Positions 20,366-26,437 of a DNA stretch of 64,000 nt are shown here, piece by piece. Under the pieces are notes generated by a model that worked only from the letters and a program-made list of their open reading frames with translations, made no database searches and was not told the DNA's origin. Source of the stretch: Bacteroidia bacterium (GTDB lineage Bacteria; Bacteroidota; Bacteroidia; Flavobacteriales_D; Sanyastnellaceae); NCBI GenBank assembly GCA_030427925.1, contig JAUICJ010000001.1:1-64000 (forward strand), written 5' to 3'. The stretch's first letter is position 1, and every line of letters begins with the position of its first letter. The translations under genes were made by a program, and so were the position numbers.

Positions 20366-21145
20366 TCAGTCGAGCTTCTTTTGAATGGTGCGCAAGTCTT
20401 CCCGCATCTGATCGAGTGTGCCTTGGATGCGTTCCATTCCAGCAAATGCTGGAGTCGGCCAATCGAACGCCAAGTACGCACGAGCGCGCCACATCTCCAC
20501 CACGTCTTCGGGAAACACCCGGTAGGGCGCGAAATCGAGGTTGTCGGAAATCAACAAATAATCCCCATGGGTGTCGAGCCGGTTCTCGACGCGCTTGAAC
20601 ACCACCCCGTGGTCGCGGGTGACCACCACGTAGGGCCGCATACCACCTGCCTTGGACCAGTTCTCCTCGTAGTGGGCCAAGATGTAGCTGCCGTGCGGAA
20701 TGGGCAGCATGCTCTCTCCCTCGATTTGAAACATCCGGTAGGTGGCGTCTTGCGGGAGTTCCTTCACCGGAAGGTTGAAATGGTCCAATCCCTCCATGTA
20801 CTCCGGATCGCCATAGCCGCTCAAGTAACCCGCAGCCGCGCGCACCGGGACAATGGCCACGCGCTCGCGTTCGGAGGAGCGATCTACAGGCACTGACAAA
20901 ACGCGCAAATCGCCCCCAATCACTCGCCGCATCATGCGGTCCTCTTCCGACTCGCCCAGCACAAAGGCATCGAGTGACATGCCGAAGTGGCGGGCCAGCG
21001 CAATCAATGTCGCGAGCTTCGGCTCGGCTCGCCCCTCCTCGTACGCGCCGAGGGCCGACCGCTTCAAACCCAATTCGTCCGCCAGGGACTGCTGGGTCCA
21101 TCCTGCGGCCTTGCGCAGTGTGCGTATTCGGGATGCTAAATCCAT
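20366..21145 (-). CDS. XRE-family repressor with S24 (LexA/CI-like) autoprotease domain
   Basis: A 259-residue regulator. Residues 3-60 are an XRE helix-turn-helix (RIRTLRKAAGWTQQSLADEL, SALGAYEEGRAEPKLATLIA). The C-terminal S24 domain has all autocleavage parts: A105-G106 in RAAAGY, S145 in IEGESMLP, and K184 in GVVFKRV, with spacings close to LexA (cleavage bond to Ser about 40, Ser to Lys 39). It is followed by a C-terminal coiled-coil-like tail (TLDQMREDLRTIQKKLD). It is divergent from the polymerase/SRAP/DnaE genes, so it is the likely damage-sensing repressor of that cassette, acting like LexA but with a CI-type HTH. ATG 21145 is used; a TTG two codons upstream is unlikely. Confidence 0.88.
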   Translation of the reverse strand: MDLASRIRTLRKAAGWTQQSLADELGLKRSALGAYEEGRAEPKLATLIALARHFGMSLDAFVLGESEEDRMMRRVIGGDLRVLSVPVDRSSERERVAIVPVRAAAGYLSGYGDPEYMEGLDHFNLPVKELPQDATYRMFQIEGESMLPIPHGSYILAHYEENWSKAGGMRPYVVVTRDHGVVFKRVENRLDTHGDYLLISDNLDFAPYRVFPEDVVEMWRARAYLAFDWPTPAFAGMERIQGTLDQMREDLRTIQKKLD

Positions 21146-21157
21146 GAGCAATGGAGG

Positions 21158-21268: not shown

Positions 21269-21287
21269 GCTAAAATTTTTAGCTTTG
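21269..21287 (+). promoter_or_regulatory. Y-polymerase promoter with overlapping 15-bp palindromic operator
   Basis: GCTAAAA-T-TTTTAGC (21269-21283) is a perfect inverted repeat with a one-base centre. Its right arm overlaps TAGCTTTG (21280-21287), an exact -7 element, 19 bases before ATG 21307. TTTG copies at 21261-21264 and 21266-21269 lie where a -33 element would be, with a short spacer. A dimeric repressor bound here would block the promoter; the adjacent S24 protein is the natural candidate. Confidence 0.6.
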
Positions 21288-21306: not shown

Positions 21307-22527
21307 ATGAATCTGCACCAACGATCCATCCTCCACCTCGACCTCGACACGTTCTTCGTGTCCGTTGAACGGCTGCTTGATAGCCGCTTGGCGGGCAAGC
21401 CGATCCTCATCGGAGGCACCGGCGATCGCGGGGTAGTGGCTTCATGCAGTTATGAGACGCGCGCGTTTGGGGTGCATTCCGGAATGCCCATGCGGCAAGC
21501 ACGCGCCATGTGCCCCGAAGCCGTGGTCATTCGCGGCAATTCATTGAATTACATGAAGCTGTCCGACGCGGTCACTGAAATCGTGCGCGAGGCCGTGCCC
21601 GTGTGCGAGAAAACCTCCATCGACGAATTCTACGCCGACCTCACTGGAATGGACCGGTTCTTCGGATGTTGGCAGTTTTCACGCGAATTGAGGGAACGCG
21701 TGGTGCGCGAGACGGGGTTGCCCATTTCATTTGGCCTGAGCACATGCAAAACGGTCAGCAAAGTCGCCACCGGCGAGGCCAAACCCGCAGGAGAACTCCA
21801 CGTTCAACAGGGCCTGGAACGTCCCTTCCTCGGCCCGCTATCGATCCGCAAGATTCCCCAAGTCGGGGTGCAGACCTACCAAACCCTGCGCAATTTGGGC
21901 GTGCGGCGCATCCACACCATTCAAGAAATGCCCCAGGACTTGATGCAGCAAGTGTTGGGCCTGAATGGATTGGCGATTTGGCGCAAGGCGCAGGGAGTCG
22001 ACCCCAGCCCCGTCGTGGCATTCAACGAACGCAAATCCATCTCCACGGAACGGACGTTTGCGCGGGACACCACCGACGTGGCCAAGCTGCAGGGCATGTT
22101 GGTGGCGATGGCGGAGAATTTGGCCTATCAACTCCGTCGGGGGAAAAAAGTGACCGCCTGCATCACCGTTAAGGTGCGCTACGCCGATTTTGATACCCGC
22201 TCCATGCAAGCACGCATCCCTTACAGCGCTGCAGATCACGTGCTCATTCCCAAGGCTCAGGAACTGTTTCAACGGCTGTACGATCGCCGCGTACGCGTCC
22301 GGCTCATCGGCATCCGATTCAGTCACCTCGTCGGTGGCGGCACCCAAATGGACCTGTTCGAAGACACGGAAGAACGCTCCAACCTCTACCAAGCGCTCGA
22401 CAGCATCCGCAACCGATTCGGCGATCGCAGCGTGGTCACCGCGGCGGGCATGGAAGCCCGCACCATCGGTCGATCGAATCCCTTCAACGGCGATGCGCCC
22501 CTTCTTTTGGCCAACCGCCATCAATGA
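21307..22527 (+). CDS. Y-family (DinB-type) translesion DNA polymerase
   Basis: A 406-residue lesion-bypass polymerase. Catalytic carboxylates are present: D12 in HLDLDTFFVSVE, and D106/E107 in TSIDEFYADLTG. The steric-gate region and fingers (GVVASCSYETRAFGVHSGMPMRQARAMCPEA) are typical. Helix-hairpin-helix thumb segments (PLSIRKIPQVGVQTYQTLRNLGV) and a little-finger domain follow. Q347-M-D-L-F351 is a classical beta-clamp-binding pentapeptide near the C-terminus. It is the first gene of a three-gene run with SRAP (22-base gap) and the DnaE-like polymerase (9-base gap). Assigning DinB versus UmuC subfamily needs a tree; no UmuD is present in the window. Confidence 0.93.
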   Translation: MNLHQRSILHLDLDTFFVSVERLLDSRLAGKPILIGGTGDRGVVASCSYETRAFGVHSGMPMRQARAMCPEAVVIRGNSLNYMKLSDAVTEIVREAVPVCEKTSIDEFYADLTGMDRFFGCWQFSRELRERVVRETGLPISFGLSTCKTVSKVATGEAKPAGELHVQQGLERPFLGPLSIRKIPQVGVQTYQTLRNLGVRRIHTIQEMPQDLMQQVLGLNGLAIWRKAQGVDPSPVVAFNERKSISTERTFARDTTDVAKLQGMLVAMAENLAYQLRRGKKVTACITVKVRYADFDTRSMQARIPYSAADHVLIPKAQELFQRLYDRRVRVRLIGIRFSHLVGGGTQMDLFEDTEERSNLYQALDSIRNRFGDRSVVTAAGMEARTIGRSNPFNGDAPLLLANRHQ

Positions 22528-22549: not shown

Positions 22550-23380
22550 ATGTGTGGTCGCTACGTCACCGTTTCCTCGGTCAAAACCATTGAAAAACGC
22601 TTCCACGTCAGCATCCCCGATGACGTGGGGAACGCGCTTGTGCCCAATGCCAACGTGTCCCACGGTGAACTCGCGCCCGTCATTGCCAGCGATGCCCCCG
22701 ACCACGTGCAGCGGTTTCAATTTGGGTTTACTCCTCGGTGGGCGAAAAAGCAGTTCTACACCATCAATGCGCGCTCAGAAGGGGACCACAATTCAGCGAA
22801 CGACCCCCGCTACACCGGAGCCATGGGCATCTTGCATAAACCGATGTTTCGGCAATCGATTCGCGACCGGCGGTGCCTCGTCATAGCGGATGCCTTCATC
22901 GAAGGTCCAGAGCGGGAAAAACTCGCGAAGCCCTATGTGGTCTACCCACGAACAGGAGATCGCCCCATGGCGCTGGCGGGCATTTGGGATGAGTGGTGCA
23001 ACCCCGCTACTGGGGAATTGGTGAGGTCGTACGCCATCTTGACCACGGTAGCCGGTGGGGTCTTGCAAGCCATCGGGCACCACCGAAGCCCCGTGATCTT
23101 GGATCCCGAGTCGGAGCGGGCCTGGGTGGACCTTAGAACCCCCCTGAACGACATCACCGCCATGATGCGGCCGTGCCCAGCCAGCCGGCTGAACGCCTAC
23201 CCCATTTCACCCGAAATCCGGGACCCTCGGGCGAACGGGTCCCACCTGCTACAGCCCATCGGACAACGCATTCACCCCGAATCGACCTACACGTTACACG
23301 AAGAAATCGAACTCTTCGGAATGGGCGAATCCCGGTCCAAATCCCGGCGCACCCCTCCCCAACAAGGTTCCCTCTTCTGA
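22550..23380 (+). CDS. SRAP-domain protein (HMCES/YedK-type abasic-site DNA-protein crosslinker) with C-terminal clamp motif
   Basis: A 276-residue SOS-response-associated peptidase (SRAP) family protein. After Met removal the catalytic Cys2 of MCGRYVTV becomes N-terminal; in this family it forms a thiazolidine with abasic sites in single-stranded DNA, protecting them. Other family residues are visible: the Asn of INARSEGDHN, the Glu of ADAFIEGPE, and the His of IGHHRSPVILDP. The last five residues, Q272-G-S-L-F276, match a beta-clamp-binding pentapeptide. The start is fixed because Cys must be residue 2. It lies between two translesion polymerases and fits a damage-tolerance role. Confidence 0.92.
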   Translation: MCGRYVTVSSVKTIEKRFHVSIPDDVGNALVPNANVSHGELAPVIASDAPDHVQRFQFGFTPRWAKKQFYTINARSEGDHNSANDPRYTGAMGILHKPMFRQSIRDRRCLVIADAFIEGPEREKLAKPYVVYPRTGDRPMALAGIWDEWCNPATGELVRSYAILTTVAGGVLQAIGHHRSPVILDPESERAWVDLRTPLNDITAMMRPCPASRLNAYPISPEIRDPRANGSHLLQPIGQRIHPESTYTLHEEIELFGMGESRSKSRRTPPQQGSLF

Positions 23381-23389
23381 ACCCGTGTC

Positions 23390-26300
23390 ATGTTCCTGAA
23401 TTGCCATTCGTGGTTCAGCCTCCGCTACGGGCTGATGCCGCCAGAAGAACTCGTGCGCGAAGCGGCCGCGCGGGGAGTGACCGCACTCGCCATGACGGAC
23501 GTCAACAACACGTCCGGGGTTTGGGACTTTGTGCGGCATGCAAAAGGAAGCGGCATTCGGCCCGTGGTGGGCATCGACTTCCGAACCGGAGCCACTTGCC
23601 ACCGCATCGGGCTGGCACGAAATGCGGCGGGTTTTGCGGCGCTTTGCCACCACCTTTCAACGGGAAAACCATGCGACGGGGAGCACGTGGAATTCATCAT
23701 TCCGTGGGCCACGTGGAAAACGTGCTCCGAGCGACCTCCCTTGCGTGAAAACGAGTGGATCGGGGTGCGTGCGGATGAAGTGGCGGAGTTCCGATTGCTC
23801 GGCAAGTCGGATGTGCATTGGGACCGGTTGGTGGCCTTGCACACCGTAACGTTTCGGCACCAAAGGGATTGGAATTGCCACCGCTTGCTACGGGCCATGG
23901 CTGGGAATACACTGCTCAGTAAGTTGGACTCCAAAGCGACGGGGAATCCGCGTGATCGGTGGGAAGACCCTGCAGCACTGCGTTCGCGGTTCGACGAACG
24001 ACCCGAATGGGTCAAACGGAGTGACGCGCTGATTGAGCGCTGTGGCATCGAATGGCCCGCCCCGCCCCAGGACCGATTGCACAACAACCAGCACACCTAC
24101 ACCGGGTCGGAAACGGAAGACGAGCGCCTCATTCGCACGTTGTGCGCAGAAGGATTGGCCTACCGGTATCCCGACCACGACGAAGTGGTCTTGGAGCGGA
24201 TGGAACGGGAGCTTGAAGTGATTGCTCAGCAAGGGTATTTGGCCTATTTCCTGATCAATTGGGACATCACCAGCTACGCGCGCAGCCGGGGTTATTTCTA
24301 CGTCGGCCGGGGCAGCGGTGCCAACAGCCTCGTCGCTTACCTGCTGCGCATCACGGATGTCGACCCCATCGAGCTCGACCTCTACTTCGAACGGTTCATC
24401 AACCTGTACCGCAAGAACCCACCGGACTTCGACATCGACTTCTCGTGGACGGACCGGGACGATGTGACGCGGTACATCTTCAAGCGATTCGAGCACGTGG
24501 CGCTGGTGGGCGCTTACAGCACCTTCCAATACCGCGCGGTCATACGCGAGTTGGGCAAAGTGTTCGGGCTCCCCAAGGCCGACATCGATGTGCTCGCGGA
24601 AGGCCGGTTTGACCCCAATCAACTCGATGACATGGAGCGGCTCGTGGTGCGGTATGCCGGCCATTTAAAAGACCAGCCGAATGCCCTGACCATCCACGCG
24701 TGCGGCATCCTGATTGCCGACCGACCCATTCACCACTACTGCGCCACGTTCCTCCCTCCGAAGGGATTCCCCACGACCCAATTCGACATGCTCGTAGCGG
24801 AGGACGTGGGGCTGTACAAGTTTGACATCCTCAGCCAACGGGGACTCGGCAAAATCCGCGACACCATGGATTTCATCGCGCGCAACCACCCCGAAGAAGC
24901 AGCCGGCATCGACATCCACGACATGAAGCGCTTCAAAGCCGATTCCGCCATCCGAAACATGCTGCGAAATGCCGAAGCCATCGGGTGCTTCTACGTAGAG
25001 TCTCCGGCCATGCGCATGCTCCTGCGCAAACTCAACGTGGACCACTACCTCGGCCTTGTTGCCGCCAGTTCCGTCATCCGTCCAGGGGTGGCAAAAAGCG
25101 GGATGATGAAGGCCTACATCGAACGGCATCGGAATCCCGAAAAGCGGCAAGAGGCCCACCCGGTCCTGCTGAAGCTCATGCCCGAAACGTATGGGGTCAT
25201 GGTGTACCAAGAGGACGTCATCAAAGTCGCGCACCACTTTGCAGGATTGGACTTGAGCGAAGCGGATGTGCTGCGCCGCGGCATGAGCGGGAAGTTCCGG
25301 TCACAGGAGGAGTTCGCCAAAGCCGCCTTTACATTCCAGCAAAAAGCCCTTGCCGCGGGCCGAACACCGGATGAAGCGCGCGAGGTTTGGCGCCAGGTCG
25401 AAAGCTTCGCGGGCTATGCCTTCGCCAAGGGACACTCCGCTTCCTATGCGGTTGAGAGCTACCAAAGCTTGTTCCTGAAAGCCCACTGGCCATTGGAATA
25501 CATGGCTGCCTGCATCAACAACTTCGGCGGGTTCTACCGCACCGAATTCTACGTACACGAGGCGCGCATGCTCGGGGCAGAAGTGGAGGAGCCGTGCGTC
25601 AACGAAGGGGGATGGGAGGCCGATGTCACCGGAAACCGCCTCATCCTGGGATTCAATTTGGTCAAGGGGGTCGAAGCGGCCTCTGTGGGAAATTGGCTGG
25701 AGGAACGCCGAACCCGAGGTGCTTTCCGCTCCTTGGGCAACTTCGTTGAGCGCACGGGTGTCGGACTCGAACAGCTCGTCCTGCTCATCCGAGCCGGAGG
25801 GTTTCGCTTCACGGGGAAAACGCCGCAAGCCTTGCTGTGGGAAGCGCATTTCCTGTTGGGACAGGGACCTTCCCTACCACATCAGGCTTCGCTGTTCGCA
25901 GCGGAATCGCATGGAGATTTCGCCTTGCCGCCCTTGGAGCACGGCCGGTTGGAACGCACGTTTGATCAGATCGAATTGCTCGGATTCCCCCTGAACTCCC
26001 CCTTCGAACTGTTAACGCCCGACGCGCAACAGGTGGTGCAAGCCGCCGTGCCTGCTCGCCACCTGCCGCAGCACATCGGCCGGACGGCCGCGGGTGTCGG
26101 CTACCTCGTTACCGTGAAAGAAACGCGCACCGGAAAAGGGGAACGGATGTGCTTCGGTTGCTTCATCGATTCCGAAGGCCATTGGCTCGACAGCGTCCAT
26201 TTTCCGCCGGCCTTGAAGCGCCAAAACTTCCGCGGCCGGGGCATCTACCGCATCTCCGGACCCGTACGGGAAGAATACGGTTGCGTGCACATCGAAGCGC

Positions 26301-26437
26301 ACCAGTTGGAAAAACTCGACTACATCCCCGATCCTCGGTACGCAGAAGGGGAGGCTGCTCCTCGTCCTTCGCGCCGCATGGCCCCGAGTGCACGCAGCGC
26401 AGGCACCCAGCTCAAACGCTCGCTCCGATCACCGTGA
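23390..26437 (+). CDS. DnaE-like (DnaE2/error-prone type) DNA polymerase III alpha homologue
   Basis: A C-family polymerase of 1015 residues, shorter than a replicative DnaE (about 1160) and lacking room for the tau-binding C-terminus. N-terminal PHP-like domain: NCHSWFSLRYG and AMTDVNNTSG, where the usual first His and the TDH His are replaced by Asn and Val. The palm carries P-D346-F-D348-I-D-F with the catalytic aspartates; GRGSGANSLVAYLLRITDVDPI and FAKGHSASYAVESYQSLFLKAHWP are typical. Q832-A-S-L-F836 fits a beta-clamp motif, followed by an OB-like C-terminal region (RGRGIYRISGPVREEYGCVHIEA). Context with a Y-polymerase and SRAP points to damage-induced bypass synthesis. It ends four bases from a convergent gene. 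Confidence 0.92.
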   Translation: MFLNCHSWFSLRYGLMPPEELVREAAARGVTALAMTDVNNTSGVWDFVRHAKGSGIRPVVGIDFRTGATCHRIGLARNAAGFAALCHHLSTGKPCDGEHVEFIIPWATWKTCSERPPLRENEWIGVRADEVAEFRLLGKSDVHWDRLVALHTVTFRHQRDWNCHRLLRAMAGNTLLSKLDSKATGNPRDRWEDPAALRSRFDERPEWVKRSDALIERCGIEWPAPPQDRLHNNQHTYTGSETEDERLIRTLCAEGLAYRYPDHDEVVLERMERELEVIAQQGYLAYFLINWDITSYARSRGYFYVGRGSGANSLVAYLLRITDVDPIELDLYFERFINLYRKNPPDFDIDFSWTDRDDVTRYIFKRFEHVALVGAYSTFQYRAVIRELGKVFGLPKADIDVLAEGRFDPNQLDDMERLVVRYAGHLKDQPNALTIHACGILIADRPIHHYCATFLPPKGFPTTQFDMLVAEDVGLYKFDILSQRGLGKIRDTMDFIARNHPEEAAGIDIHDMKRFKADSAIRNMLRNAEAIGCFYVESPAMRMLLRKLNVDHYLGLVAASSVIRPGVAKSGMMKAYIERHRNPEKRQEAHPVLLKLMPETYGVMVYQEDVIKVAHHFAGLDLSEADVLRRGMSGKFRSQEEFAKAAFTFQQKALAAGRTPDEAREVWRQVESFAGYAFAKGHSASYAVESYQSLFLKAHWPLEYMAACINNFGGFYRTEFYVHEARMLGAEVEEPCVNEGGWEADVTGNRLILGFNLVKGVEAASVGNWLEERRTRGAFRSLGNFVERTGVGLEQLVLLIRAGGFRFTGKTPQALLWEAHFLLGQGPSLPHQASLFAAESHGDFALPPLEHGRLERTFDQIELLGFPLNSPFELLTPDAQQVVQAAVPARHLPQHIGRTAAGVGYLVTVKETRTGKGERMCFGCFIDSEGHWLDSVHFPPALKRQNFRGRGIYRISGPVREEYGCVHIEAHQLEKLDYIPDPRYAEGEAAPRPSRRMAPSARSAGTQLKRSLRSP

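Follow-up and report, generated by a model that had tools for sequence, protein, structure and literature searches.

The window analysed here, a stretch of 64,000 nucleotides from a member of the Bacteroidia, contains an operon on the + strand encoding, in order, a Y-family polymerase, an SRAP protein and a DnaE2-type polymerase. The type of operon, the similarity of the clamp and the style of the promoters point to the phylum Bacteroidota. The features of the locus are as follows.

20366..21151, - strand: XRE-S24 (LexA/CI-like) repressor, divergent to the operon (Pfam HTH_3 and Peptidase_S24)
21269..21283, no strand: GCTAAAATTTTTAGC palindrome between the divergent repressor and Y-polymerase genes
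21307..22527, + strand: Y-family polymerase, DinB/UmuC-like, with a catalytic-type SIDE motif (Pfam IMS, E 1.1e-42)
22345..22359, + strand: QMDLF, clamp-binding-like motif of the Y-polymerase at residue 347 (QINLF or QMDLF at the equivalent place in relatives)
22550..23380, + strand: SRAP gene, encoding a YedK/HMCES-type abasic-site crosslinking protein (Pfam PF02586, E 2.6e-42; AlphaFold; Foldseek)
22553..22555, + strand: Cys2 codon in the MCGR start, the crosslinking residue by homology to YedK/HMCES
23270..23377, + strand: C-terminal tail of SRAP, residues 241-276, of low model confidence and probably flexible
23309..23332, + strand: ELFGMGES element in the tail, conserved in the window's subfamily (alignment of 34 relatives)
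23363..23377, + strand: QGSLF, C-terminal beta-clamp-binding-like pentapeptide (direct reading, conservation, position)
23390..26437, + strand: DnaE2-type error-prone C-family polymerase (Pfam DNA_pol3_alpha, E 5.2e-60; C-family models of NCBIfam)
25883..25897, + strand: QASLF, clamp-binding-like motif of DnaE2, residues 832-836 (aligned column xxxLF in nearly all relatives)

The repressor gene adjoins the operon in many of the PolY-containing relatives whose contigs extend far enough. Upstream of the Y-polymerase gene or operon, relatives have sites related to the palindrome, reading TTTGCTCATTATTTTAGCA or, in one genus, TGCCAA-N5-TTGGCA, and the palindrome in the window is probably the operator of the XRE-S24 repressor. 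The operon consists of the Y-polymerase, SRAP and DnaE2 genes only; ImuA and ImuB genes are absent from it, and it does not qualify as an ImuA-ImuB-DnaE2 mutasome.

SRAP proteins crosslink to abasic sites in single-stranded DNA. For YedK this activity is described in PMC9436759. The SRAP reading frame of the window begins with the ATG at 22550 and encodes 276 amino acids, and its product is placed in the family by both profile and fold. The AlphaFold model has a mean pLDDT of 91.6, with most of the core at 93-98, and in a Foldseek search it matched HMCES and YedK structures with E-values of about 1e-13 to 1e-17, the best PDB matches being BT_1218, HMCES and YedK. Cys2 is present in all 45 ungapped alignment rows and N73, E118 and H177 are invariant; the active-site set of YedK and HMCES (Cys2, Asn, Glu, His) is retained as C2, N73, E118 and H177. 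The window protein has the fold and these residues in common with E. coli YedK and the SRAP domain of human HMCES, but differs from them in an insertion after INAR, an additional conserved ELFGMGES segment and a terminal clamp-type motif.

The C-terminus of the protein reads ...RSKSRRTPPQQGSLF, the last residues being PPQQGSLF. Direct reading of codons 23363-23377 (CAA GGT TCC CTC TTC), which are followed immediately by the TGA stop at 23378-23380, confirms the original observation that SRAP ends in a clamp-binding-like QGSLF. This pentapeptide fits the Q-x-x-[LMI]-F clamp-motif consensus and is the sole match to Q..[LMI][FL] within the whole protein. Among the reading frames of at least 100 amino acids in the window, just one other has such an ending, and it is an apparently non-genic frame. 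The tail peptide that includes the motif is SRRTPPQQGSLF. Over the last 36 residues pLDDT falls, by 10-residue block, through 74, 61 and 57 to 53, with the motif at the extreme end. The polar, probably flexible tail that had been predicted is thus borne out: it is variable among relatives, polar and modelled with low confidence, and probably forms a flexible, accessible segment carrying the motif.

Within the subfamily, the ELFGMGES..R.R element is retained even in members that have no terminal motif, and in these the protein ends soon after it. The linker between this element and QxxLF can be as short as a few residues or as long as about 35; its length and sequence vary among relatives while the motif is constant. 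Judged from these alignments, the motif and the tail are retained or lost together, as would be expected of a peripheral docking peptide. Several cassette SRAPs of the window's family have no tail at all (L007, L011, L013, L018, L019, L076, L080 and L087), and the tail therefore appears to be dispensable in some lineages.

The genome has a single match to the beta-clamp C-terminal domain, a DnaN of 372 amino acids counted from its ATG. It resembles solved bacterial clamps, the closest being 8dt6 (E 2e-108). It contains TDAHRL and ends in LVMPVMLNS, and TDAHRL and the C-terminal MPVML are elements that we take to form the peptide pocket as in E. coli beta. Judged by its sequence, the host clamp looks to have a canonical peptide pocket.

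Q-x-x-L-F is a short pattern, and chance occurrences also happen. The frequency of the ending was determined in 373 distinct complete SRAP proteins, comprising 64 from the window's order, 87 from its phylum, 32 from Alphaproteobacteria, 29 from Actinomycetes, 26 from Planctomycetota, 19 from Gammaproteobacteria, 26 from Bacilli, 82 from a mixed many-phylum set and eight from plasmids or phages; the Alphaproteobacteria, Actinomycetes, Planctomycetota, Gammaproteobacteria and Bacilli groups were each centred on named organisms. A strict motif was defined as Q-x-x-[LMI]-[FL] at the C-terminus with at most three residues beyond it. This ending was observed in 69 proteins, against about 1.5 expected from shuffling of the tails, and is absent from 304, including all eight plasmid and phage proteins and nearly all of those from Bacilli. 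For the 64 SRAPs of the window's order, shuffling the last 15 residues of each predicts 0.22 such endings; 32 of them have one, a difference which excludes chance as the source of the ending. Of 877 neighbouring reading frames at the sampled loci, 13 have the same ending, and several of these are repair-type proteins beside SRAP. Terminal Q..[LMI][FL] exceeds the shuffled expectation in every chromosomal group sampled, and its excess over neighbouring proteins is significant in five of the eight chromosomal groups for the strict motif and in seven for a relaxed one.

The motif is also specific in its position. Of the 309 SRAPs that do not belong to the window's order, 30 have Q-x-x-[LMI]-F at or close to the C-terminus: 25 end in it exactly, 4 have one residue beyond it and 1 has two. 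All other positions in these proteins, some 68,600, give 12 matches together. Of the 121 SRAPs with a terminal [LMI]F, 62 have Q where the clamp motif has it, 30 of them from outside the order; the background Q frequency is 4.4%.

The motif is near-standard in the window's family, and motif-positive SRAPs are found in at least six phyla. Named examples from outside the order are Marivibrio halodurans (RGQMSLF) and metagenome-assembled genomes (MAGs) of Nitrospinota (LQGSLFGD), Phycisphaerae (EQGLLF) and Opitutales (PQQEELF). The recurrence of the same kind of ending in relatives across many phyla suggests that clamp tethering of SRAP is probably widespread. On a FastTree phylogeny of the SRAP domains, from which the tails had been removed, the strict motif has been gained or lost at least 34 times. 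Among 23 DnaE2-linked, motif-bearing relatives, the free positions of the motif (G and S) are 55% identical pairwise, as against 15% for the preceding 20 residues; Q, L and F are fixed by the choice of the set and are not counted in this comparison. In the same relatives the Gly, Ser and Leu of the motif are each spelled with four to six codons. This combination of conserved free positions and many synonymous codons argues that selection acts on the peptide. An Actinomycete SRAP (L241) ends in GDDAPF, which is reminiscent of the C-terminal tip of SSB and not of a clamp motif.

Clamp-motif-like endings were also seen in proteins encoded beside SRAP in other genomes. UvrD/AddA-like helicases convergent with SRAP (L343:4723-7956 and L336:1028-4201) end in EQGTLF or QTSIFD, and proteins of comparable size in L340 and L341 have the endings IQGTLF and QMRMF; it is possible that helicase-nucleases adjoining SRAP carry clamp motifs of their own. 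A DUF72 protein directly upstream of SRAP (L335:3072-3977, also in L088) ends in KQNTLF. DUF72 and SRAP have been reported together near polB2 (PMC11791011).

An SRAP was scored as linked to the mutagenesis cassette when a sequence similar to the polymerases of the window lay within the reach of its locus, often 1.5 kb in each direction, and some linked cases may have been missed. In the window's subfamily, the motif is present in 23/34 DnaE2-linked SRAPs and in 4/19 unlinked ones (Fisher p 0.0016), a comparison between related sequences that are not ancestry-independent. Outside the order the strict motif occurs in none of 25 SRAPs detected beside a Y-polymerase or DnaE2, against 37 of 284 unlinked proteins. 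There are 15 independent pairs on well-supported branches of the SRAP-domain tree, and a tree-aware pair test found no association between motif and cassette, in a comparison that has little power as few pairs differ in linkage. SRAPs on conjugative plasmids of E. coli (L095) and Fluoribacter dumoffii (L092) lie beside umuD and a Y-family polymerase and have no clamp motif. It had been predicted that the motif would be enriched in cassette-linked SRAPs over others. As a general rule this fails, the association being confined to the window's subfamily, and beyond the subfamily cassette linkage is rejected as the cause of the motif. The underlying idea of an SRAP-clamp tether fares better in its general form, which agrees with the conservation, position and cross-phylum recurrence of the motif and with the canonical-looking clamp. 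As far as sequences can tell, a general tether is well supported, and it is broader than the cassette-specific version, which did not stand.

Several other explanations for the ending can be considered. It might stem from chance, or from drift within a lineage that inherited a short hydrophobic terminus from a single ancestor. Many of the positives inside the window's order are indeed related, but more than 30 state changes on the tree, the spread over phyla, the purifying pattern at the codon level and the excess of observed over expected endings already contradict this account, which is highly improbable. The terminal SLF might instead be a proteolysis tag (C-degron), making SRAP or the crosslinked protein a substrate of ClpXP or Tsp after damage. 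It is general knowledge that hydrophobic free C-termini can signal to proteases and that SOS proteins are often short-lived, and in 52/69 proteins the motif forms the exact C-terminal end. A degron would, however, leave unexplained why Q stands four residues ahead of F in half of the [LMI]F endings and why in the other 17/69 the motif is followed by one or two further residues (for example QGSLFD, QMSLFD, QGALFS and QGSLFGD), and the pattern equals the clamp consensus; a degron therefore seems quite unlikely.

A slightly stronger contender, albeit still an unlikely one, is that the SRAP tail serves as the clamp tether of a DnaE2-Y-polymerase mutasome, SRAP being a structural subunit that gives DnaE2 its clamp contact, as ImuB does elsewhere. 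This would suit the co-operonic arrangement in the window's family and the frequency of the motif in its DnaE2-linked members, as well as a few genera in which no Y-polymerase was found in the stretch read around SRAP-DnaE2 and the DnaE2 motif is degenerate. On the other hand, xxxLF is nearly always retained in DnaE2's own clamp-binding column, with or without a motif in SRAP; the motif is common in SRAPs that have no detected polymerase neighbour (15/32 in Alphaproteobacteria); and the independent pairs show no association. A regular-expression scan had hinted at compensation, with the DnaE2 motif lost when SRAP has one. This was rejected, as alignment of the homologous DnaE2 column shows xxxLF nearly everywhere.

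The reading preferred here, to which a probability of about 0.83 is assigned, is that the last five residues of SRAP are a short linear motif that binds the beta sliding clamp, and that the flexible tail of about 35 residues docks an abasic-site shield on the clamp. The binding, recruitment, timing and competition that are proposed would run as follows. QGSLF would insert into the clamp's hydrophobic pocket at the primer terminus. Once an abasic site has halted a polymerase, the clamp left at the stalled terminus would adjoin the lesion in the template, and some 35 flexible residues could be long enough to connect the pocket with the template strand in front of the clamp. The tethered SRAP would thereby be held beside the exposed single strand, raising its local concentration where abasic sites block synthesis, and could crosslink the site via Cys2 in place of translesion synthesis or cleavage. 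As SRAP would be produced with two clamp-motif polymerases, these proteins may compete or take turns on one clamp, with SRAP favouring shielding and the Y-polymerase and DnaE2 favouring bypass.

A more ambitious version, which is put forward tentatively as a doubtful extension, holds that clamp tethering is a general and repeatedly evolved property of SRAP, and that in the window's family SRAP, the Y-polymerase and DnaE2 are one damage-induced set sharing a single clamp, whose holder decides between shielding and bypass. If the tether is real, its presence in many phyla would explain how YedK-type proteins of bacteria come to abasic sites at replication forks, and would make the shield a direct competitor of translesion polymerases for the clamp. 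The idea is easily tested, as one peptide suffices.

The pentapeptide that binds the bacterial beta clamp is described as of the QL[SD]LF class, an example being QSSLF of PolA2 in the available passages of a 2026 polymerase survey (PMC12926913). The SRAP ending shares with this class the Q-x-x-L-F consensus and a disordered segment, but is carried by SRAP in place of a polymerase and has mostly Gly at position 2 in the window's family. The same passages describe a DnaE2B-PolY-RecA module in Bacteroidetes, which resembles the window in having Y-polymerase and DnaE2 in one operon. They place SRAP-like proteins beside UmuC-like polymerases, outside the DnaE2B module, whereas the SRAP of the window sits between the Y-polymerase and DnaE2; no clamp motif in SRAP is reported in them. 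In Aravind et al. 2013 (PMC3765255) SRAP was connected with operons of SOS polymerases, and SRAP lies beside polymerase genes there as it does here; the word clamp is absent from the text of that paper. More widely, the open-access literature searched (abstracts and passages, outside subscription papers and preprints) reports no clamp motif in SRAP. Solved chains of the model protein, E. coli YedK, finish at about the point where the SRAP profile finishes, which may be why a link to the clamp has been overlooked.

On the best reading of the sequences, the SRAP ending would be a clamp tether that has evolved recurrently, a bacterial counterpart of the PIP motif of HMCES. HMCES reportedly has a C-terminal PCNA-interacting (PIP) motif, a finding ascribed to Mohni et al. 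in 2019. In both cases an abasic-site shield bears a C-terminal tail with a sliding-clamp motif, but in HMCES this is a PIP box for PCNA, whereas in bacterial SRAP it would be QxxLF for DnaN. As motif and clamp both differ, the likeness between the two appears to be convergent and not inherited.
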